A DNA stretch of 64,000 nucleotides from Acholeplasmatales bacterium. GTDB lineage: Bacteria; Bacillota_I; Bacilli_A; Acholeplasmatales; JAEDCM01. Below, piece by piece: positions 3,761-43,843 of the stretch. How positions within the stretch are numbered: position 1 is the stretch's first letter; each line of letters starts with the position of its first letter. A program made the translations under genes and the position numbers. The DNA lies in NCBI GenBank assembly GCA_017961685.1, contig JAGCWW010000016.1, positions 1 through 64,000 of the forward strand, written 5' to 3'. The notes under the pieces were generated by a model. The model was not told the origin of the DNA, did not search any database, and saw only the letters and a list, made by a program, of their open reading frames with translations.

Positions 3761-5038
3761 ATGTTAGACATTAAATTTGTAAGAGAAAATCCCGAAATCG
3801 TAAAGGAAAACATCAAAAAGAAATTTCAAGATGAAAAACTTCCACTTGTTGATGAAGTAATTGATCTTGATAAGAAAATTAGAGCTTTTAAAGGTGAAGC
3901 TGAATCACTTAGAGCAAGTCGTAATGATTTATCTAAACAAATTGGAGCTTTAATGAGAGAAAAGAAAATTGATGAAGCTAATGAAATTAAAGCAACAGTT
4001 AATAAAAATAATGAAAGAATAGCTGAAATCGAAAAGGAACAAGTTGTTTTAGAGGAAGAATTATTAAAGAAAATGATGGTTATTCCAAATATCATCGATG
4101 CTTCTGTTCCAATTGGTAAAGATGATTCAGAAAACGTAGAAAATCAAAAATTTGGTGAACCAGTAGTTCCAAGCTATGAAATTCCATACCATGCAGATAT
4201 TATGGCTAAGTTTGATGGTCTTGATAAAGATGCATCAGGTAGAGTTTCAGGTAACGGCTTCTACTATTTATGTGGTCCAATCGCTAGACTTCATTCAGCA
4301 ATGTTAAGCTATGCTAGAGATTTTATGATTTCTAAAGGTTTCATTTATTGTATTCCACCATTTATGATAAAAAGCGATGTAGTAAATGGAGTTATGTCAT
4401 TTGCTGAAATGGAAAATATGATGTATAAAATTGAAGGTGAAGATTTATACTTAATCGGTACTTCTGAACACTCAATGATTGGTAGATTTAAAGGACAAAT
4501 CATTAAAGAAAATCAATTACCATTAACTCTAACAAGTTATTCTCCATGTTTCCGTAAGGAAGTTGGAGCTCATGGAATTGAAGAACGTGGAGTATATAGA
4601 GTACATCAATTTGAAAAGCAAGAAATGATTGTTATTTGTAAGCCTGAAGATTCAATGGAATGGTATAATAAAATGTGGAGTTACACAGTAGAATTCTTTA
4701 GAAATTTAGACGTTCCAGTAAGAACTTTAGAGTGCTGTAGTGGAGATTTAGCTGACTTAAAAGTTAAGTCATGTGATGTTGAAGCTTGGTCTCCTCGTCA
4801 AAAGAAATATTTCGAAGTTGGATCATGTTCTACACTTGGTGATGCACAAGCTAGAAGACTTGGAATTAGAACTAAAAATGAAAATGGAACATACTTAGTT
4901 CATACATTAAATAACACAGTTTTAGCTACTCCAAGAGGACTAATTGCAGTGCTTGAAAACAACTACAATGAAGATGGTTCAATCAACGTTCCAAAAGCTC
5001 TACAACCATATATGGGTGGTATGACTATTATTATATAA
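3761..5038 (+). CDS. serS: Serine-tRNA ligase
   Basis: Charges tRNA-Ser with serine in the cytoplasm. 425 aa, normal length. An N-terminal coiled-coil tRNA-binding arm (about residues 30-100, rich in Glu/Lys) precedes a class II catalytic core with TSEH, motif 2 (CFRKEVGAHG), the EERGVYRVHQF segment and motif 3 (NNTVLATPRGLIAVLE). AGGAGG lies 8 bases before the ATG. It is transcribed alone, from a leader carrying a serine-type T-box, so expression should rise on serine starvation. The dnaA-gyrBA-serS order is common in Bacilli. Confidence 0.98.
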   Translation: MLDIKFVRENPEIVKENIKKKFQDEKLPLVDEVIDLDKKIRAFKGEAESLRASRNDLSKQIGALMREKKIDEANEIKATVNKNNERIAEIEKEQVVLEEELLKKMMVIPNIIDASVPIGKDDSENVENQKFGEPVVPSYEIPYHADIMAKFDGLDKDASGRVSGNGFYYLCGPIARLHSAMLSYARDFMISKGFIYCIPPFMIKSDVVNGVMSFAEMENMMYKIEGEDLYLIGTSEHSMIGRFKGQIIKENQLPLTLTSYSPCFRKEVGAHGIEERGVYRVHQFEKQEMIVICKPEDSMEWYNKMWSYTVEFFRNLDVPVRTLECCSGDLADLKVKSCDVEAWSPRQKKYFEVGSCSTLGDAQARRLGIRTKNENGTYLVHTLNNTVLATPRGLIAVLENNYNEDGSINVPKALQPYMGGMTIII

Positions 5039-5040
5039 AA

Positions 5041-5093
5041 AAAGGCTTAATAAAGCCTTTATATAAGATTGTGATTATTCACAATCTTTTTTA
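5041..5093. terminator. Bidirectional double-hairpin terminator between serS and the leftward gene
   Basis: Two perfect stems lie in tandem: AAAGGCTT/AAGCCTTT (5041-5060) and AAGATTGTGA/TCACAATCTT (5065-5088). A T-run follows on the plus strand, and the equivalent lies before 5041 on the minus strand. The second hairpin overlaps the last codons of the leftward gene. Confidence 0.8.
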
Positions 5094-6772
5094 TTTTTAT
5101 AATAATTTATAAGGTATTTCACATATCTTAATTGGATAGAATCTTTTTCAATTTTACTCATATCCAAAAATGTTTTTTCATCAATTATCTTCATAAAAGT
5201 ACTTTCTAAATATGATCCTTCTTTTTCCGTTTTTAGATAATCAAATTGGCGTTTGTTATAGTGTAATAGAATGTCATTAATTGTTTTATTTAGTTCTTCT
5301 TCGCTATCTAGTTTTACTGTTATTATGCCAAAGAAATCTGGTTTTCCTGATTTAGAAAATAATCTTGCAACTCCAAGTAGTTCAAAAAGGGAATCTTCTT
5401 TTATTAGATAATCATTATTATTATGGAATAGATATGAATCAATATAACTTTCTTCATTTAGTTCTCTTAGCATGGCATATTTTAATAAATCTTTAAAACT
5501 ATTATTTTTATTCATTTTATAATCGTTATAATCCATAGAACCCGATCCTGATGGAACAAATTTTGATTGATTTACATCAGTAAAACTACATTGTCTATTA
5601 ACTAAATAATATTTTTTATTATTTGCTTCTAATTGTAAAATGATATTTATACCTATTAGGTTAGTTAATGGACTTTTTTCAATATCTCTAAACCCATTAG
5701 TTACTTGATCTAAGGCTATTTTTCTTCCATCAATTAGAAATGTTGGATCACTATTTAATGTGATATTTCTATAAATCATTTCATCATTTGTGACATAATC
5801 ACTATATAATACTTTTTTAATATGTATTTTTTTCCCATTATAGAAGTTTAAATCACTATTAATTCCACATAATTTAGAATCAAATAAGACTTGTTTGGAA
5901 TCTATTTTCTCTGATAATATACATCCATACGCTGTTTTTTCATTAAATGTCTTTTGTTTATATATTTTATCTAATATAACTGGCATATTATTAGCATATT
6001 TTCTTAAATTTTCATTTTCTATATTAGAAAACATAAAAGAAAATTCATTAATATTATCATCTATAAAGTTACTACATATAAAGTCTTTATAAATTCGATT
6101 AATTTTAGAGGATTTTTCAATATTAAATGCTATATTCTTTTTAATATCATCTGATATTTTTATATCCTTTGTCCCATAAAAAGTATTATTAAATACTTTC
6201 CTATCTTTAATTAAACTTATAATTTTATTTATGATTGGAAGAATAGCTGTTAAGAATGTTAAAACAGTAATAATTGATATTTTTGTTCTATCATAAGATA
6301 TTGCGGTAGCAATAGCACTAATAATAAATATTAAGACTGCGATAATATCTATTGACTGAATATTATGTTTTATTTTGTTTTTTTGTTTTTCTATCTTTTT
6401 TAAGAATTTATGATAATATTTATCACAAATATTAGTTTTATTAATGTCATTAACTACTTTAAAATATTTATCAAATTCTATTTTATTTTCACTAGGTATT
6501 TCTTCTTTATCTATTCTTATATAAATAAATAGACCATTCTTATTATTTTTAATTATTCTATCTCTAGTAACACTAATACCTTTAATATTTTCAATAGTAA
6601 AAAGAATTTTTGTGCGTATATTAATGGTGTTACTATCAAGAGTAATACTTAAATTCTGATTCTTATTTATTTCTTCTTTTATTTCTAAATCAAACTCTAT
6701 GGGATTATAAATTCCTAATAAACAATCATATTTATTAACTAAGTATATAAATGTATTATCATTATTATGCAT
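5075..6772 (-). CDS. Unknown two-TM membrane protein with a Nudix-like C-terminal region
   Basis: 565 aa; I do not recognise a named family. Residues 1-135 are a soluble, Asn/Ile/Lys-rich N-terminal region. Two adjacent hydrophobic helices follow (about 141-159 and 165-187), then a long soluble part. About residues 370-505 resemble a Nudix fold: a strand YYLVNRQ, a segment VPSGSGSMD in the place of the Nudix glycines, and RELNEES (436-442), which matches the REUXEE core. The first Gly of the box is missing and its Glu is replaced by Asp, so catalysis is doubtful. An ATG 15 bases upstream is rejected, because GGAGG (6781-6785) overlaps it and sits 8 bases from the ATG at 6772. The gene stands alone, opposite to its neighbours, and is very AT-rich, compatible with acquisition. 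Confidence 0.75.
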   Translation of the reverse strand: MHNNDNTFIYLVNKYDCLLGIYNPIEFDLEIKEEINKNQNLSITLDSNTINIRTKILFTIENIKGISVTRDRIIKNNKNGLFIYIRIDKEEIPSENKIEFDKYFKVVNDINKTNICDKYYHKFLKKIEKQKNKIKHNIQSIDIIAVLIFIISAIATAISYDRTKISIITVLTFLTAILPIINKIISLIKDRKVFNNTFYGTKDIKISDDIKKNIAFNIEKSSKINRIYKDFICSNFIDDNINEFSFMFSNIENENLRKYANNMPVILDKIYKQKTFNEKTAYGCILSEKIDSKQVLFDSKLCGINSDLNFYNGKKIHIKKVLYSDYVTNDEMIYRNITLNSDPTFLIDGRKIALDQVTNGFRDIEKSPLTNLIGINIILQLEANNKKYYLVNRQCSFTDVNQSKFVPSGSGSMDYNDYKMNKNNSFKDLLKYAMLRELNEESYIDSYLFHNNNDYLIKEDSLFELLGVARLFSKSGKPDFFGIITVKLDSEEELNKTINDILLHYNKRQFDYLKTEKEGSYLESTFMKIIDEKTFLDMSKIEKDSIQLRYVKYLINYYKNKKDCE

Positions 6773-6795
6773 AACGTATTCCTCCATACATTTTA

Positions 6796-6824
6796 ATTAT
6801 AAAATAATTAATATATATTTTCAA
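6796..6824 (-). promoter_or_regulatory. Sigma-A type promoter of the two-TM/Nudix-like gene
   Basis: On the minus strand TTGAAA (6819-6824), a 17-base spacer and a perfect TATAAT (6796-6801). The predicted start of transcription near 6789 leaves a very short leader holding GGAGG, which supports the start codon at 6772. Confidence 0.7.
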
Positions 6825-6840
6825 TTATATTTATTAAGAT

Positions 6841-6871
6841 AAAAAAGAAAACGGCTTAAATTAGCCGTTTT
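6841..6871 (-). terminator. Terminator of the leftward HIT operon
   Basis: Stem AAAACGGCT/AGCCGTTTT (6848-6856 with 6863-6871). On the minus strand it is followed by TTTTCTTTTTT. It ends the 7768-to-6893 transcript. Confidence 0.8.
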
Positions 6872-6892
6872 TTATTTTTATAAAATTCGAGA

Positions 6893-7327
6893 TTATTCTT
6901 CAGGAGACCAACTTTTTTGAAGTGGTCTGATATCTAATTTACCACTTACTTCTACTGCTACTTGATACTTATCTTCATATACAATTTTACCTGGTAATGT
7001 ATTAGTATAAACTAGGTAAAATGGATGGTTGTATCTTTCAAGTAACCACATAGCTGGAAGTATCATATTAAGCATTTCTTCAGAGTTTTCTGTCTTGAAA
7101 AAACATATAACTTTTTCTTGACTTGTGCATTGTGGGGGCCATGGTAAATTAGTTGCGAACCAATCATCAATCTCTTTGAATAAGCCGCTATCTTCTTCAT
7201 CCATGATATCGTTTTGAACTAAGTCCCAGCACATGCTAAAAATACCTCTAGCATACATTGTATTTTGAGCTAGTTCTTGTCCTTGAATTCTAACGTATTT
7301 AAATCTAGAAATGATTGTTTTATTCAT
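6893..7327 (-). CDS. Conserved hypothetical protein, 144 aa
   Basis: I do not recognise a characterised family. It is soluble, with no signal peptide or TM segment. It has an aromatic/acidic centre (EIDDWFATNLPWPPQC near residues 46-61) and single Cys residues, and ends in SWSPEE. The start is supported by GGAGGTGATGCT directly before the ATG. It lies 27 bases downstream of the HIT gene on the same strand, without a terminator between, so the two are probably one transcript. No function is assigned. Confidence 0.75.
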   Translation of the reverse strand: MNKTIISRFKYVRIQGQELAQNTMYARGIFSMCWDLVQNDIMDEEDSGLFKEIDDWFATNLPWPPQCTSQEKVICFFKTENSEEMLNMILPAMWLLERYNHPFYLVYTNTLPGKIVYEDKYQVAVEVSGKLDIRPLQKSWSPEE

Positions 7328-35961: not shown

Positions 35962-36138
35962 ATGAAGATATTATCAATCATCTTTGGATTTATTGCTGAT
36001 CCATTTAGAAAAGTAACAAGTCATATCAATAGTGAAAAGATTACAAAATACATTTCAAAACACAATCTAATTGTGTATGGAATAACTGTTTTAATAACTA
36101 TTCTATCTGCTTTAACATTCTATTTGTGGTTAAAATAA
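35962..36138 (+). CDS. 58-aa single-pass membrane microprotein downstream of cdaA
   Basis: Unrecognised small gene. AGGAGG lies 6 bases before the ATG at 35962, and a stop at 36136-36138 precedes a strong terminator. About 35 soluble, basic residues (starting MKILSIIFGF, then PFRKVTSHI) lead to one hydrophobic helix (IVYGITVLITILSALTFYLW). It is too short for CdaR, which has YbbR repeats. Position and coupling to cdaA suggest a membrane partner; that is inference. Confidence 0.75.
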   Translation: MKILSIIFGFIADPFRKVTSHINSEKITKYISKHNLIVYGITVLITILSALTFYLWLK

Positions 36139-36150
36139 TTATAATAAAAC

Positions 36151-36173
36151 GACCTCTAAAGAGGTCTTTTTTT
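36151..36173 (+). terminator. Terminator of the cdaA operon
   Basis: Stem GACCTCT/AGAGGTC, loop AA, then T7. Confidence 0.85.
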
Positions 36174-36263
36174 ATACATTTTGTATAGAAAAATGTTACA
36201 AATTGTAAAGAAAATGCAAAGGAAATCGCTTTAATTTGACTTTTTTTACTGAAAGTAATAAAA

Positions 36264-36297
36264 TATAATTGATATTTATGGGCGTAGGATATTTATG
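36264..36297 (+). promoter_or_regulatory. -10 element and direct repeats in the leader of the giant gene
   Basis: TATAAT at 36264-36269 without a clear -35, followed by two direct copies of GATATTTATG (36271-36280 and 36288-36297), 17 bases apart. No known riboswitch is recognised in the 185-base gap. Confidence 0.4.
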
Positions 36298-36323
36298 CCT
36301 AAATTTTAAAGGAGATGATGCTT

Positions 36324-39300
36324 GTGGGTAATATTATGGACGAAAAACCTAAGAAGACTAAAAAAGCACCAAGAATTAAACACAAAAAGTTAATCATACT
36401 ATTTACAGCAATTTTAGTTGTTGCAACAGTATTTATTATAAAAATATTCAACACAAAGAAGTACGCTTTGGCAGAGGAGACACAATCATTTGAGATTGAA
36501 CGTCCAAAGACTGGTACTCCACTTGATTATTCAGGTAAAGATAACGCAGCTATATGTAACTGGGTTATAAAACATGAGGGCGGCTTCAAGACTGTTACAA
36601 CTGGTGCAGCTATTGCTAAGGTTGTAGGTATGAGCTACAAACAAGATATAAAGAATACAAGAATAGTTACTAATGATGGTTGCTATATTGAAACAATAAG
36701 TAACAGTTCATTAGTAAAGGTTCATTATGAAAAATATTTAAAAGATGATCAAGTAGTTATTAAAAACTGTAAGAAAGATTCTTATAGAACAGTAACAACA
36801 GAAGAATTCTTAAGTGAATATGGTTGGCACCCAACAGAGTATCAAGCATATATCCTAAATGAAGAAACAATTTTAGAAGCAACTATTGAGCAAGCAGGAG
36901 ATAATTATAAGCTTACGTTAAATCTAGATCCTGTATCTTCAGCACCTAAGAAACAAATAGAAACAAAAACAACAGGTGGAGCTAAAGGCTACCCAGGATA
37001 TAAAAAAGCAATTCTAACAATTACTCTTGATAGTACATGGAGAACATTAGAAATTGCTACAGAAGAAGTATATGATATTAATATGCCAGGTATTGGTTCT
37101 ATCACTTGTAAGGGTGATATGGTTGAAGTATTTGAATATGGTGATTTTGAAATTCCAAATAAAGATGAATTTAAATCACATCTAGGCACAACTAATAATG
37201 ATTCAGTTGATGATGATAAAGATACAATAAGTTATCTACAAGAAATATTTGGACCACTTATTAAGGGTGAAATGAATGACTTTGATTTAACAGCTGATAT
37301 TCTAGATACTAAGTTAAATGGTAATTTGAATTTAAGATTAGATAATGGAATATCCGCAAATGTTAGATTAGATGATATATTTGTTAAATATGATGGCGCA
37401 TATGTTTATGTCAAGTTAGGTAATAACAAATACAAACTTGAAGTAAATAAATTAATGAAACAATTTAGTGGAACTAATGTTCAAAGTTCTGTAAATGTTG
37501 ATGATTTAATTTCCCAAGTAAATAACGCAGTTATTAAAAAAGATGGAAATAATGTAACAGTTACAATCGATTTAAATATGATGGGTATGCATGCTATGGC
37601 AAAAATCAATGCAACTCTAAATAGTGAAGAAGAATATGTATTTACTGATTTATATGCTGTATTAACTATAGCTAATAAAGATTTCATCTTCACAATGAAG
37701 CCATCAAATGCTTACTCATATCCAACTGTTGATAGCACATATGAAAATATAACTGATATGTTCTATATCGTTGATGAAGTAAAAGCATTAATCGATAAAC
37801 CAGTTGAAATTGATTTAGAAACAACTATTAAAGATGTTAATATTAAAGTTAATGCAATTTATGATAATGGCTTAGCTAGTGGAAATATTATAATTAATGA
37901 TAAATATGAAGCTAACATTTACTATGAAAAAGATAATGTATACTTCGTATGTAATAACTTAAAGTTTAAGTTTAATATTAATGATATTGATAAGTTCTCT
38001 GATACTAAGATTGATTTAGGAGAATTTAAACTTAACGTAAGAGATATTCTTGATACATTAAAGACTTTAGATATTGATATGCTAGGTTCTAAGTCTTTTA
38101 GTATTAAAGCTAATTTAGATAAGTTTGTTAAAGACTTTGGAACATTAGAATTAAAGGTATCTAAGACTGATAAATTAAATGTTAGAATTGAAAATTATAA
38201 CTTAGATTTAAGTGTAGCACAAGCTACAAGTAAGGTTGCTACTAAACCTGAATTAGAATATGTTGATGTAGCTGACTTAAAGTGGGTAATTGATAATGTA
38301 ATGGATGCTATCAATTATGAAGCTTATAGTTTTGATTTAGATTTAATTTATAATGATATAAAGGTAAATGGTAATGTTTATCTTGATAGAGATTTAAATG
38401 CAAAAGCAAACATTAATCTAGATTATAAAGATTATTCATTTAAAGATGTAAAAGTAATTTACAAAGATAAAACAATTTATGTTGAATATGCTAATTTAAA
38501 ATTCAATTTAACAGTTGATGATATTAAAGATGTATTAGCTAAGTTCAACGTTGAATTAGATACTAATACAAATATTGATTTAGATGCTTTAATTGATGAA
38601 GTATATGGATCACTTAATATTACAAACACAGAAGATTCAATAAATATTTTAGTTAATTTATTAAGCGTAAATAGCTTATTAGAAAATGTTAGTGTAACTC
38701 TAACAAAGGATAATAAGTTAAGTATTAATTTAAAAGATATTAACGCTAACTTAGTATTAAGTAAGGCAGAAAAAGAAGAAATTACAATTTCTAATGATTA
38801 TATAAGTTATAGTGAAATTAGTTTTGTAATTGATGAAGTGCTTGAAGCATTAGATTATGAAGCATATAACTTCACAATTGATGCAACTTATAAAGATATT
38901 AAAGTAAATGGTAATAGTTACTTAGATAAAGATTTAAATGTATTAGCAACTATTAATTTAACTTATAAAGATTATGAATTTAACGGAATTAATTTAATTT
39001 ATACTAATGATGTAATTTATGTTGAATTCAAGAACTTAAAGTTTAGCTTAACAGTTGATGATATTAAAGAAGTATTAGCTAAATTTGATGTTAAGTTAGA
39101 AGATAATAATATTGATATTAATTCAATTATTAATGATTTAACAAGTTCATTAACTTTAACAGCTATTAATAATACATTAACAGTAAATGCTAATTTAAGT
39201 AGTGTTAATAGTTTGTTAGAAAATGTAAGTATTATTCTAGATAATAATTATAGCGCAAGCATTAATTTAAAAGATATTAGCGCAAATATTAAGCTAGAAG

Positions 39301-41357
39301 AAGCAACTAAACAAGAAATTATTATTAATAATGATTATATTAATTATTCAGAAATTAGTTTCTTAATTGATGATATTAAGAACGTATTAGACTTTGAAGC
39401 ATATAACTTTAATATTAATCTAGAATATAAAGATCTAGTTGTAACTGGAACTATTTATCTAGATAAAGATTTAAATGTTGAAGCTAATTTAAATGTAACA
39501 TACCTTGGTATGGCATTTAATGATATTGTATTAATGTATCAAAATGGTGATATTTACTTATCATATGGATTAATGTCTATAAAGATTAATAAAGATGATA
39601 TTAATGATATTATTGAAAAGATTAATACAACATTCAATTTAACAATTAGTACTGATAGTCTAAATACAGAATTTGATGTAAAACAAATCATTAATGATGT
39701 ATTAAATAGCTTAGTATTAAGCGTAAATGATGAAACAGTTAACGTTAAACTTGATTTATCAAGTATTAATAGTATGTTAGAAAACATTAATATTAACATT
39801 AATAAAGACTTTAACTTAAATGTTGAATTCGATACAATTAAGGCAAACATCACTTTAACAAGTGCTAATAAGAAAGATTTAGTAATGCCTGAAGCTGTAA
39901 TTAATAAGTCTAAGGTAATGTTATTAATTGAATATGCTGAACAATTAAGAGAAGTAGTTGAAAAGTGGAGATATCATATCGGATTTGAACTTCATGTTAA
40001 TAATCATGATGTTTATGCAGATGTTAATATCGTAACTAATAAACCAAACGCTGGTTTAGCATTATATGGAAAACTAATTATCTTCAATGGTAAGAAACAA
40101 TATTATGTTGAAGCAAGTATTATCCAAGAAATGGTTTCAGGTGTAAAGAAAGATATAGCTTACTTAAAGTTTAGTCAAACAATTACTAACCTTAATAAGA
40201 CTAATCCAATTAAGAGTACTACTAGCCAATATATCAACTTCAAGATTGATTTTGATGAATTAATCGAATTAGCAAATTATGCCGTTGATAAACTTGGAAT
40301 TACTGATGATACTATTAAGATGGCTATTACTTATCTAGGTACAATAGTTAATACTGATGGTAACTTTGATGATCTATTCAATGAATTAAAAGATAAAGCA
40401 AAATCAATTGATTTATCAATGATTAATGATATGATTGATTTATCTAAGCTATATATTGATGTTGATGATAATGAATTAACTATTAACTTAGGAGAAAATA
40501 GTGAAAATAATGTTCAAATATTAAAAGTTTTAAGAGAAAATGGCGCAATTAAGGGATTAAATGTAAAAGACTTTGAAATAAATAATGATATCTTAAATGC
40601 TAACTTTGAATTATTAGAAGATGCAAATATTACTAATGCTAATTACTCAGGATGTCTAAACTTCACTGGTATTAGTGGATTAGTTAAAGCAGCATTAAAT
40701 AACTATAGTAAAGGTGAAATAGCATTTAGTGGTTCCGCAACAGTTAAGTTCTTAACTGGTGGTGTTGAAATTAATTTCGATGTTAAGTTAGACTTTGATT
40801 ATGAAGGAAAACTTAGAGGCGCAATTAACTTAAGCGTTGAAAAATTAGGATTAGGTTTACTTGGTTCAATTATTATTAGTCATGAATCAACATCACAAAT
40901 CTATATCCAAAATAATATGATTTATATTAGTCGTAAAACTAATTCAACATCAACTAGAAAGATGACTTTATCTGAATTTGGTAAAGATGCGTTAGAACAA
41001 ATTATTTGGTTATTAGATTTTACTGATACAATCGCAGATACAATAAGAAATACAGAGGCTAAAGAGATTAAGATTGAAGAAGTATTAAAATCTTATAGTG
41101 GAAGTGATAATAGCTATAATGTAACATTAGATGGTGAAAAACTAGTAGGATCTACTCTATTTGGTGATATTAGCTTAGGATTAAAGACAACAAAAATCAA
41201 TAATGAAGATTACTTATCAAGTGCATCAATTAGTACAAAGATAGTATCAGTTGTAAGTGTTAGCGCAGATGTAACATTTAATAATAACACAATTAGTTGG
41301 TCTTCATTCCCAAGTATTGAAACACTAAATGGATATACAGAGTATAAAGTTAATTAA
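36324..41357 (+). CDS. Giant membrane-anchored extracellular repeat protein (1677 aa)
   Basis: Not assignable to a named family. A short basic cytoplasmic start (KPKKTKKAPRIKHKK) precedes one TM or signal-anchor segment (LIILFTAILVVATVFII); everything after is predicted outside. A first domain of about 250 residues is followed by at least six related units of about 175-187 aa, each a helix (for example ISFVIDEVLEALDYEAYNF) followed by beta strands with D/N-rich turns. No sorting signal (LPXTG) or catalytic motif is seen. Start: AAAGGAG ends 9 bases before GTG 36324; ATG 36315 abuts the ribosome site and ATG 36336 is too far. The repeated beta units are reminiscent of LolA/LppX-like half-barrels, which is only a guess. 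Confidence 0.8.
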   Translation: MGNIMDEKPKKTKKAPRIKHKKLIILFTAILVVATVFIIKIFNTKKYALAEETQSFEIERPKTGTPLDYSGKDNAAICNWVIKHEGGFKTVTTGAAIAKVVGMSYKQDIKNTRIVTNDGCYIETISNSSLVKVHYEKYLKDDQVVIKNCKKDSYRTVTTEEFLSEYGWHPTEYQAYILNEETILEATIEQAGDNYKLTLNLDPVSSAPKKQIETKTTGGAKGYPGYKKAILTITLDSTWRTLEIATEEVYDINMPGIGSITCKGDMVEVFEYGDFEIPNKDEFKSHLGTTNNDSVDDDKDTISYLQEIFGPLIKGEMNDFDLTADILDTKLNGNLNLRLDNGISANVRLDDIFVKYDGAYVYVKLGNNKYKLEVNKLMKQFSGTNVQSSVNVDDLISQVNNAVIKKDGNNVTVTIDLNMMGMHAMAKINATLNSEEEYVFTDLYAVLTIANKDFIFTMKPSNAYSYPTVDSTYENITDMFYIVDEVKALIDKPVEIDLETTIKDVNIKVNAIYDNGLASGNIIINDKYEANIYYEKDNVYFVCNNLKFKFNINDIDKFSDTKIDLGEFKLNVRDILDTLKTLDIDMLGSKSFSIKANLDKFVKDFGTLELKVSKTDKLNVRIENYNLDLSVAQATSKVATKPELEYVDVADLKWVIDNVMDAINYEAYSFDLDLIYNDIKVNGNVYLDRDLNAKANINLDYKDYSFKDVKVIYKDKTIYVEYANLKFNLTVDDIKDVLAKFNVELDTNTNIDLDALIDEVYGSLNITNTEDSINILVNLLSVNSLLENVSVTLTKDNKLSINLKDINANLVLSKAEKEEITISNDYISYSEISFVIDEVLEALDYEAYNFTIDATYKDIKVNGNSYLDKDLNVLATINLTYKDYEFNGINLIYTNDVIYVEFKNLKFSLTVDDIKEVLAKFDVKLEDNNIDINSIINDLTSSLTLTAINNTLTVNANLSSVNSLLENVSIILDNNYSASINLKDISANIKLEEATKQEIIINNDYINYSEISFLIDDIKNVLDFEAYNFNINLEYKDLVVTGTIYLDKDLNVEANLNVTYLGMAFNDIVLMYQNGDIYLSYGLMSIKINKDDINDIIEKINTTFNLTISTDSLNTEFDVKQIINDVLNSLVLSVNDETVNVKLDLSSINSMLENINININKDFNLNVEFDTIKANITLTSANKKDLVMPEAVINKSKVMLLIEYAEQLREVVEKWRYHIGFELHVNNHDVYADVNIVTNKPNAGLALYGKLIIFNGKKQYYVEASIIQEMVSGVKKDIAYLKFSQTITNLNKTNPIKSTTSQYINFKIDFDELIELANYAVDKLGITDDTIKMAITYLGTIVNTDGNFDDLFNELKDKAKSIDLSMINDMIDLSKLYIDVDDNELTINLGENSENNVQILKVLRENGAIKGLNVKDFEINNDILNANFELLEDANITNANYSGCLNFTGISGLVKAALNNYSKGEIAFSGSATVKFLTGGVEINFDVKLDFDYEGKLRGAINLSVEKLGLGLLGSIIISHESTSQIYIQNNMIYISRKTNSTSTRKMTLSEFGKDALEQIIWLLDFTDTIADTIRNTEAKEIKIEEVLKSYSGSDNSYNVTLDGEKLVGSTLFGDISLGLKTTKINNEDYLSSASISTKIVSVVSVSADVTFNNNTISWSSFPSIETLNGYTEYKVN
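37228..40470 (+). repeat. Six intragenic repeat units of about 530 nt
   Basis: The helix that opens each unit recurs at about 37228, 37758, 38280, 38818, 39355 and 39915. Units 3-5 are closest to each other (shared FEAYNF/YEAYNF, YLDKDLN, LTVDDIK, SSVNSLLEN), implying recent duplication; units 1, 2 and 6 are more diverged. Confidence 0.8.
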
Positions 41358-41361
41358 AATT

Positions 41362-41389
41362 AGGAAGTGAATTTTCACTTCCTTTTTTA
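41362..41389 (+). terminator. Terminator after the giant gene
   Basis: Stem AGGAAGTGA/TCACTTCCT, loop ATTT, then T6. The following ~75 bases are A/T-rich with no further feature seen. Confidence 0.85.
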
Positions 41390-41496: not shown

Positions 41497-41521
41497 TTTA
41501 TTGGTTTTAAGGAGGTTTATT

Positions 41522-42502
41522 ATGATTAGAATCGGAATTTATGGATATGGAAATTTAGGTAGAGGTGTAGAAGCCGCTATTAGTAATAGTAAAGATATGG
41601 TTTTAGTTGGAGTATTCACTAGACGTGATCCATCTACAGTTAAAACAGAAACAGATGTTAATGTTATTAGCGCAAATGATATTTTAGATTACAAAGATAA
41701 AATTGATGTTTTAGTATTATGTGGAGGTTCAGCAACTGACCTACCTGTACAAACACCAGAATTAGTAAAAAACTTTAACGTAATTGATTCATTTGATACT
41801 CATGCTAAAGTTTTAACACATTTTAAGAATGTTGATGAGGCTGCTAAAGCTACTAAGCACATTGGTGTTATTTCAGTAGGTTGGGATCCAGGTTTCTTCT
41901 CAATTGCTAGACTTTACTCAAATGCTTTCTTACCAGATGGTAATGATTACACATTCTGGGGTAAGGGTGTAAGTCAAGGTCATAGCGATGCCATTAGAAG
42001 AATTGAAGGAGTATTAGATGCTAAACAATATACAGTACCAGTAAAAGAAGCATTAGATGCAGTTAGAAGCGGATCTAATCCTGAACTTACAACTAGACAA
42101 AAGCATACTAGATTATGCTATGTAGTTGCTAAAGAAGGTGCTGATAAAGCAAGAATTGAAAAAGAAATCAAAGAAATGCCAAATTATTTTGCAGATTACG
42201 ATACAACAGTTCATTTCATTTCTTTAGAAGAATTAAAAGAAAAGCATTCAGGAATGCCTCATGGAGGACATGTAATTAGAACTGGTGCTACAGGACTTGG
42301 ATTAAACTATAAAGATAGTATTGAATTAACATTAAAGCTTGATTCTAACCCATTCTTTACAGGTTCAATTCTAATTAGTTATGCTAGAGCATGCTATAGA
42401 TTAAATAAAGAAGGAAAATCAGGATGCTTAACAGCATTTGATATTGCTCCTAAGTATTTAATTGATAAGGATTATGAAGAAATTTTAGGTCATTTACTAT
42501 AA
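41522..42502 (+). CDS. ddh: meso-Diaminopimelate D-dehydrogenase
   Basis: 326 aa NADPH enzyme making meso-DAP in one step from tetrahydrodipicolinate, for lysine and/or wall peptide. Recognised by the Rossmann start RIGIYGYGNLGRGVE, VGWDPGFFS, SQGHSDAIRRIEGV and SGMPHGGHVIRTG. The ATG at 41522 is 6 bases after AAGGAGG; an in-frame TTG at 41501 precedes the ribosome site and is rejected. Its presence suggests a DAP-type wall or a lysine route. Confidence 0.95.
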   Translation: MIRIGIYGYGNLGRGVEAAISNSKDMVLVGVFTRRDPSTVKTETDVNVISANDILDYKDKIDVLVLCGGSATDLPVQTPELVKNFNVIDSFDTHAKVLTHFKNVDEAAKATKHIGVISVGWDPGFFSIARLYSNAFLPDGNDYTFWGKGVSQGHSDAIRRIEGVLDAKQYTVPVKEALDAVRSGSNPELTTRQKHTRLCYVVAKEGADKARIEKEIKEMPNYFADYDTTVHFISLEELKEKHSGMPHGGHVIRTGATGLGLNYKDSIELTLKLDSNPFFTGSILISYARACYRLNKEGKSGCLTAFDIAPKYLIDKDYEEILGHLL

Positions 42503-42541: not shown

Positions 42542-42566
42542 ACATTCATAATTAAAGTGCTATAAT
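42539..42566 (+). promoter_or_regulatory. Promoter of the first paralogous membrane gene
   Basis: TTTACA (42539-42544), 16 bases, TATAAT (42561-42566), 22 bases before the ATG. Confidence 0.6.
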
Positions 42567-42588
42567 GCTATCCGTAGGAGATGATAGC

Positions 42589-42948
42589 ATGTCAAATGCA
42601 AGAAAAATCTTTATGATTATAGCAGCTATTCTATCAATTGGACTTGCATTACTATTAGGTATTTGTGCTATAGCCTTCTTTGTTTCAATGAACAATGAAG
42701 AGCTACTTCAAAAAATGCTTGATGGATTAAATAGAACATCTAAATCAGTAGATGAAGATAAAGCATTCGTATTTAGATTCGGTATTATATTCTTAATATT
42801 TGCTATTCTTGAATTAGCAAATGTTGTCTTATCATTTATGGGATTTAAAACAAAGAAAACAGGTGTAATGGTTTTAAACATTATACTTGGTGTAGCATCA
42901 GGTGTTTATGTAAATAGTGTTGGTGGGATTATAGGACTGCTGGAATAG
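42589..42948 (+). CDS. Small membrane protein, paralog 1 of 3
   Basis: 119 aa, unrecognised family. Hydrophobic helices at about 6-31, 62-81 and 92-115, with a charged outside or inside loop in between. The opening NARKIFMIIAAILSIG recurs in the next two genes (AKRILLTISGALSIA, AQKILMIIAGALSIF), as does the ending (LNI[IV][LF]G[VA].S...V..VGGIIGL). Start at 42589 from GGAG 8 bases upstream; an ATG at 42565 lies inside the promoter -10 and is rejected. Confidence 0.8.
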   Translation: MSNARKIFMIIAAILSIGLALLLGICAIAFFVSMNNEELLQKMLDGLNRTSKSVDEDKAFVFRFGIIFLIFAILELANVVLSFMGFKTKKTGVMVLNIILGVASGVYVNSVGGIIGLLE

Positions 42949-42953
42949 ATTAG

Positions 42954-42978
42954 AACTGACATTGGTCAGTTTTTTTCT
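42954..42978 (+). terminator. Terminator after paralog 1
   Basis: Stem AACTGAC/GTCAGTT, loop ATTG, then T-rich. Confidence 0.8.
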
Positions 42979-43009
42979 TTTTATGGTATAATAATATGAG
43001 GTGATTATT

Positions 43010-43408
43010 ATGGAAAAAGCAAAAAGAATATTACTTACCATTTCTGGTGCACTATCTATAGCTATGATCTTTGTTTGGCTAGCACTTGGGATTGTTTTTA
43101 TTAGTATCGCAAATAACGCTGAGTTAATGAATAGAATGTCTGAAGAAATTGAAGAAAAGGTAGTTGCGGGATTCTTTGAAATATTCTTTGGGATGTTTGG
43201 CGCATTTTTCTTATATTTTTCCGTTATGAGCATATTTAGTGCTATATTTGCCTTTAAGGGAAGAGATAGTGATAGTAAATCAATGATGATTTTAAATATT
43301 GTTTTTGGGGCATTATCCGCAATGGAAGTAAGTATTGTTGGTGGAATACTTGGTTTAATTAGTATAAGTAGAAAAAACAATAGAAAAAAACAAATAGTAG
43401 AAGAATAG
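43010..43408 (+). CDS. Small membrane protein, paralog 2 of 3
   Basis: 132 aa. The same layout as its neighbours: N-terminal helix after a KAKR start, a central charged loop (MSEEIEEKVV), two further helices around FEIFFGMFGAFFLYFSVMSI and MMILNIVFG, and a basic tail (SRKNNRKKQ). The ATG at 43010 follows GAGGTGAT; an in-frame GTG at 43001 is inside that ribosome site. Function unknown. Confidence 0.78.
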   Translation: MEKAKRILLTISGALSIAMIFVWLALGIVFISIANNAELMNRMSEEIEEKVVAGFFEIFFGMFGAFFLYFSVMSIFSAIFAFKGRDSDSKSMMILNIVFGALSAMEVSIVGGILGLISISRKNNRKKQIVEE

Positions 43409-43433
43409 AAGAAAAACTCTTCTATTTTTTTTA
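43405..43433 (+). terminator. Terminator after paralog 2
   Basis: Stem ATAGAAG/CTTCTAT, loop of 7, then T7. Confidence 0.75.
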
Positions 43434-43471
43434 TTGTAATATTGTAATAATATTAAAGGAGATGAATATTT

Positions 43472-43843
43472 TTGAAAACTGCACAAAAGATTTTAATGAT
43501 TATTGCTGGTGCTTTATCAATCTTTATGGTTATTATCTGGGCTATCTGCGCAGGAGCATTCTTTGTTTGTGCAAATAGCGATAAATACATTCTTGATTAC
43601 ATAGCTGAACATCCAGATGTAACAGAAGAAACTGCTAAGGCTGCATTAATGGCTGTTGGAATAATGTTTGCTATATTTGCTTTATTCAGTATAATAAACG
43701 CTGCTCTATCATTTAAGGCAATAAGTACTGATAGAAAGGGATTACTAGTTTTAAACATCGTTTTTGCTGTATTATCAAGCGTAATGGTAAATTTAGTAGG
43801 AGCAATCTTCGGATTAATCGCAAGAAATCAAAAGAAAGAATAA
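43472..43843 (+). CDS. Small membrane protein, paralog 3 of 3
   Basis: 123 aa, closely related to the two upstream genes. It appears to start at TTG 43472: AAAGGAG lies 10 bases upstream, and the protein then begins MKTAQKILMIIAGALSI, aligning with its paralogs. The nearer ATG at 43462 is out of frame. Three hydrophobic helices, an inner loop with YIAEHPDVTEETAK, and a basic end (ARNQKKE). Confidence 0.75.
   Translation: MKTAQKILMIIAGALSIFMVIIWAICAGAFFVCANSDKYILDYIAEHPDVTEETAKAALMAVGIMFAIFALFSIINAALSFKAISTDRKGLLVLNIVFAVLSSVMVNLVGAIFGLIARNQKKE

Follow-up and report, generated by a model that had tools for sequence, protein, structure and literature searches.

LolA-fold proteins are, to our knowledge, known as single carriers. 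Their fold comprises strands 1-6 and 7-11 with the L7 lid between them, which gates a hydrophobic pocket; in LprG and LolB the lid consists of three short helices, and the function of LprG and LolA requires the pocket (PMC6363788). In MucB, lipid binding probably resides in the half-barrel (PMC7400510).

This study analysed a window of 64,000 nucleotides from an Acholeplasmatales bacterium (assembly GCA_017961685.1, contig JAGCWW010000016.1, positions 1 to 64,000), in which one gene encodes a giant membrane-anchored protein with repeated units predicted to adopt this fold. The fold is already known; what appears to be new is its occurrence in tandem arrays, in which 3 to 17 units share a single membrane-anchored chain between a constant head and a constant cap. 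The open-access papers searched contained no description of a variable-copy tandem LolA-fold array that is fused to a second LolA-like protein or paired with one.

General features of the gene

The open reading frame at 36315-41357 of the forward strand is uninterrupted over 1680 codons. The GTG codon at 36324, taken as the start in the first-pass annotation, has the best-placed ribosome site, with a spacer of 9 nt (Table 1). Terminator-like hairpins gave 4 strand-wise matches against 0.6 expected, and since they flank the repeat gene on both sides, it probably has its own transcript. Comparison with the homolog of a congener revealed purifying selection (pN 0.28, pS 0.50). The whole repeat protein has no sequence match in Pfam, NCBIfam or PDB, in agreement with the earlier failure to recognise a family, and nothing significant was obtained when N-domains, units and partner proteins were searched in the same databases.

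Like the window protein, the homologs begin with basic residues followed by a hydrophobic N-terminus. The protein had been described as anchored and extracellular; the membrane anchor is borne out by the transmembrane helix in the sequence, while the outward orientation is a sound inference, because a basic tail precedes the helix and homologs carry lipobox signal peptides and surface-type add-on domains. The C-terminus, as noted before, has no LPXTG or similar sorting signal of the kind expected of a wall-anchored adhesin.

Table 1. Coordinates of the repeat gene, its domains and flanking signals in the window
Feature	Position	Strand	Remarks
Upstream terminator-like hairpin	36151-36166		
Promoter-like site TTGACT-17-TAAAAT	36236..36264	+	matches the consensus only; no regional enrichment of such matches
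Shine-Dalgarno AGGAG	36310..36314	+	9 nt 5' of GTG 36324
Giant membrane-anchored repeat protein gene	36324..41357	+	ORF open also from ATG 36315
Single N-terminal transmembrane helix	36390..36446	+	from sequence; preceded by strongly basic cytoplasmic tail
N-terminal domain, residues 61-281	36495..37157	+	conserved in fused homologs; separate gene in others; LolA-like fold predicted
Unit 1	37203..37787	+	unit HMM, structure model
Unit 2	37734..38306	+	unit HMM, structure model
Unit 3	38253..38846	+	unit HMM, structure model
Unit 4	38793..39383	+	unit HMM, structure model
Unit 5	39330..39944	+	unit HMM, structure model
Divergent sixth unit, residues 1201-1400	39915..40514	+	sequence-borderline
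Conserved C-terminal cap, residues 1307-1664 (~360 aa)	40233..41306	+	contains divergent terminal unit
Downstream terminator-like hairpin	41362..41383	+	

Repeat units, N-domain and C-cap

The ~530-nt repeats reported previously were recovered at the DNA level with a period of 537-540, as three 248-nt copies with 65-70% identity to the reference copy. The protein units are ~180 aa long. A unit profile HMM, started from three of them and extended iteratively with homologs, matched residues 315-489, 491-662, 661-842, 842-1021 and 1020-1207 (E 6e-22 to 7e-46), with a weak match in the terminal region at residues 1487-1660 (E 9e-10). In the alignment of overlapping unit triplets that was used (A4), a few rows are displaced by one unit. 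Adjacent units overlap at their ends in Table 1, as each was taken to include the helix that links them.

The unit starts given by the first-pass annotation (37228, 37758, 38280, 38818, 39355 and 39915) correspond to residues 305, 482, 656, 835, 1014 and 1201, which coincide with the unit positions, and its repeat phase was therefore right. Its count of at least six units holds for the five that are clear by profile HMM, the sixth (residues 1201-1400) being borderline. The middle units, 3-5, which had been called very alike, are the most similar ones, yet their amino-acid identity is just 31-54%, and units 1-2 share only 15-25% with the rest. From these matches and the models, the protein seems to be composed of seven or eight domains in a row, five of them clearly repeated.

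The C-cap is kept in nearly all full-length homologs (E down to 1e-113), and hhalign places the C-terminal region on the unit profile with E 7e-6. HMM-HMM comparison of the N-domain with the units revealed no link, so that their likeness is one of predicted fold only. Across the homologs, the family plan is a fixed head, middle units in variable number and a fixed cap.

Predicted fold

The AlphaFold2 model of units 3-5, based on an alignment of 26 rows, reached a pLDDT of 83.8 and a pTM of 0.67, the latter hinting at a defined arrangement between the three units. It shows the order H-6E-H-H-5E three times, that is, helix, six strands, two helices and five strands, which agrees with the earlier description of a helix followed by beta strands; the folds came out repeated, and the non-repetitive alternative was not seen. 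In a model of the N-domain with units 1-2 (pLDDT 81.3), the N-domain shows the same general plan.

Foldseek searches against PDB matched the unit model to LppX, LolA, RseB and LprF, and the N-domain model to LolA, RseB and LprG, all at probability 1.00. The best credible match was LppX 2byo (probability 1.00, TM 0.54 by target length), and TM-scores of 0.4-0.55 indicate likeness of fold, not of function. Other near-top matches were disregarded, as these were long beta-repeat proteins aligned across units, with lower probability and rmsd >20 A.

The three modelled units are predicted to have the 11-strand antiparallel sheet in 6+5 order characteristic of the LolA superfamily (CATH 2.50.20), with a lid of two helices per unit between strands 6 and 7, and the predicted models match solved members of the superfamily by Foldseek. 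This layout is that of the published LolA fold, and therefore supports the earlier guess of a LolA/LppX-like half-barrel as far as the fold is concerned, the arrangement being a tandem array. Over 70 units, the strands are hydrophobic on one face (alternation 4.09 versus 1.61, sd 0.36, in shuffled sequences; 0/5000), a property expected of any sheet with helices on one side, and necessary for a pocket, though no proof of it.

Relatives and distribution

A first scan of the genome collection with the full-length protein gave no match. Matches to the repeat protein were found in 23 of 61 genomes, comprising the host's own and its relatives, and a public genome scan yielded 18 loci, most of which bear the labels Anaeroplasmataceae, Anaeroplasma or Acholeplasmatales. 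The homologs carry 3-17 units and reach lengths of up to 4623 aa; the array of a congener is shorter by one unit, and the cultured type strain Anaeroplasma bactoclasticum ATCC 27112, which is represented among the 18 loci, has six units in one ORF. Across the class, the unit profile matches 43 of 395 genomes in six family-level groups, the carriers being Anaeroplasmataceae and other small-genome families. A large family is thereby named, formerly seen as giant unnamed proteins with no Pfam or NCBIfam model.

The N-domain profile matches 61 of the 395 genomes, and N-domain and units co-occur in 40 of the 43 unit-bearing ones (hypergeometric 1e-35). Group f11 and part of f21 encode the N-domain (~300 aa) and the unit-bearing protein (584-1241 aa) in separate genes; at each of the nine split loci read, the two genes are same-strand neighbours separated by -4 to 32 nt. 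These repeat proteins carry few units, most include the C-cap, and in two (L093, L097) the N-terminus is a lipobox signal peptide. That the N-domain and the repeat part are fused in some lineages and encoded side by side in others indicates that they work together. In six split loci (L089, L090, L091, L092, L093, L099) an HTH_3 regulator gene lies divergently upstream of the pair, possibly as its dedicated regulator.

Several further observations concern the homologs and stray N-domains. In the Anaeroplasmataceae homologs L037 (residues 1956-2363 of 2440 aa) and L048, the C-cap is followed by a Listeria-Bacteroides repeat and a weak BspA-type LRR, modules absent from the window protein. Two Anaeroplasmataceae genomes have only the N-domain, in the same place with the same neighbours. 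The N-domain copies G041:C1:287817-288440 and G280:C95:56666-57289 have one in-frame TAA each and are possibly decaying genes. The host itself encodes a second protein with an N-domain-like region on contig C69 (locus L101, 2405-4645, reverse strand); it is of 746 aa, with a lipobox (LLTGC) and no recognisable units or C-cap, and adjoins a 790-aa lipoprotein (4807-7179, reverse strand) in which a ~70-aa repeat, built around an FYNTE-like motif, occurs about four times.

Host, cell wall and gene neighbourhood

The host genome, an assembly of 84 contigs that is 82% complete, gave no match to penicillin-binding transpeptidase or Mur ligase families in searches whose controls worked, which agrees with a wall-less relative of Acholeplasmatales; the bacterium thus appears to be wall-less. 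The same lack would explain the missing wall-sorting signal of the repeat protein. Peptidoglycan has been lost several times in these lineages, and their orders mix walled with wall-less species, including unexpected walls in Anaeroplasmataceae (PMC10868615). The carriers of the repeat family fit this mixture, since PF00905 transpeptidase is lacking in 22 of 30 and present in 8. These 8 rule out a specific link of the repeat family with wall loss, and the family is therefore no invention of it.

The window gene is flanked by cdaA and a diaminopimelate (DAP) dehydrogenase gene, and the Anaeroplasmataceae homologs by ackA and HD/trmFO-type genes. No conserved transporter or lipid gene lies beside the repeat gene in the window or the homolog neighbourhoods, and a functional operon around the window gene is ruled out by the bracketing terminators and by neighbours that differ between clades. 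The place after cdaA is usually occupied by cdaR. A giant replacement for CdaR is ruled out, because homologs outside the genus are not beside cdaA and a small membrane ORF intervenes. This ORF (35963-36139, forward strand), directly after the diadenylate cyclase gene cdaA, encodes 58 aa with a single membrane helix, has a strong ribosome site and is conserved in both congeners (L034, L035). On the other side, the diaminopimelate dehydrogenase (41501-42502, forward strand) probably has lysine synthesis as its only role, neither Mur ligase nor transpeptidase having been detected in the genome; it is followed by three tandem DUF4064-like small membrane paralogs (42565-43843, forward strand), all below the Pfam cut-off.

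Proposed function and alternatives

The predicted architecture is consistent with a multivalent, outward-facing binder or relay for hydrophobic ligands such as lipids or lipoproteins, a reading that we favour tentatively, at close to even confidence. The protein would be a tandem array of LolA-fold beta-clams that starts with a LolA-like N-domain, continues with some six middle units and ends in a divergent one, and a single N-terminal helix would tether it to the outside of the cell membrane of an apparently wall-less bacterium. In each clear unit the prediction gives 11 strands (6+5) in one curved sheet, with a helical lid connecting strands 6 and 7; in LolA, LprG and MucB this arrangement holds acyl chains or lipids. 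The row of units may thus bind many hydrophobic ligands (lipids, fatty acids, sterols or lipoproteins) simultaneously, or hand them along, and ligands would move between the membrane on the N-domain side and whatever stands outside at the C-cap. Ligand binding and its purpose are inferred, and RseB and other LolA-fold members, in which the fold has further uses, count against a lipid binder, as does the lack of a conserved transporter or lipid gene in the neighbourhood. A more specific version, in which lipids or sterols travel from clam to clam between the cell's single membrane and its environment or other membranes, appears unlikely; such a surface relay between the membrane-side N-domain and the distal C-cap in wall-poor bacteria is a possibility. 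If true, the array would correspond to the bridge proteins, with a chain of beads of another fold in place of their continuous groove.

The protein may instead be a stalk with a structural or adhesive role, in which the LolA fold is a mere building block and the repeat number sets the stand-off of the C-cap and added domains; this is a serious, though less probable, alternative. The repeat number is quick to change, ranging from 3 to 17 and differing by one unit between congeners, some Anaeroplasmataceae homologs carry the surface-protein modules mentioned above, and the window protein has a strongly acidic, Asn/Asp-rich surface with a net charge of -97. However, the modelled units keep the 6+5 strands and helical lid, features superfluous in a simple spacer, the C-cap is a conserved domain at which the window protein ends with no adhesive module, and the split-gene versions have few units only. 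RseB and MucB rank high among the fold matches, which raises the question of an envelope sensor of their kind, the array sensing lipid or envelope stress and the well-conserved N-domain relaying the signal. We regard this as improbable: the HTH_3 gene directly upstream of the pair in six split loci and the N-domain conservation speak for it, but the cytoplasmic part is a basic stretch of just ~25 residues, the window gene has neither an anti-sigma partner nor a regulator next to it, and up to 17 copies would not be needed. As for an assembly error in the ORF or copy number, the fragmented and incomplete host assembly is the point in its favour. A copy-number artefact is nevertheless unlikely, because amino-acid identity between units does not exceed 54%, too low for them to be confused, the congener has one unit fewer and the type strain has six in one ORF; these sequence checks revealed no sign of an assembly effect, and together with purifying selection and the same architecture in a cultured strain they make this explanation scarcely credible.

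Arrays of this kind point to undescribed lipid handling or cell-surface building in lineages whose lipid uptake and surface make-up are poorly known. Since a cultured type strain carries the array, lipid binding is open to direct testing.

Comparison with known systems

The sequence profiles place the units in none of the LppX, LolA and DUF6612 families. One N-domain member is weakly similar to DUF6612 (PF20316; E 0.0028), which is not significant family-wide, and HMM-HMM comparison with DUF6612 gave no signal, only two sequences being alignable. RseB and MucB resemble the window protein in having a LolA-like domain and an envelope location, but they consist of one such domain and a small C-terminal domain and work with an anti-sigma factor, of which there is no sign here: no anti-sigma gene lies alongside in the window or homolog neighbourhoods, and HTH_3 was found in split loci only.

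Repeating beta-groove bridges such as VPS13 and AsmA/TamB are also long, built of repeated beta-sheet modules and anchored at one end, but they form a continuous groove (PMC7613979), whereas the units here are separate predicted 6+5 clams; neither VPS13 nor TamB was among the Foldseek matches listed. LolA and LolB (CATH 2.50.20) share the 6+5 strand order and the lid position, but are single domains, soluble or lipidated, that work for an outer membrane, a structure absent from the Bacilli, to which the host lineage belongs. The tandem array with a transmembrane anchor likewise differs from the single-domain carrier with LolCDE/LolB that defines LolA lipoprotein sorting.

For LppX_LprAFG (PF07161), 1 of 70 units matches with E 0.022, short of the gathering cut-off, and the LppX profile had no match in the same class, where its control had none either. 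The predicted 11-strand half-barrel and helical lid and the probable location outside the cell membrane are shared with LppX, LprG and LprF, which are single-domain mycobacterial lipoproteins of ~190 aa, whereas the units described here stand in a tandem array with a transmembrane anchor.
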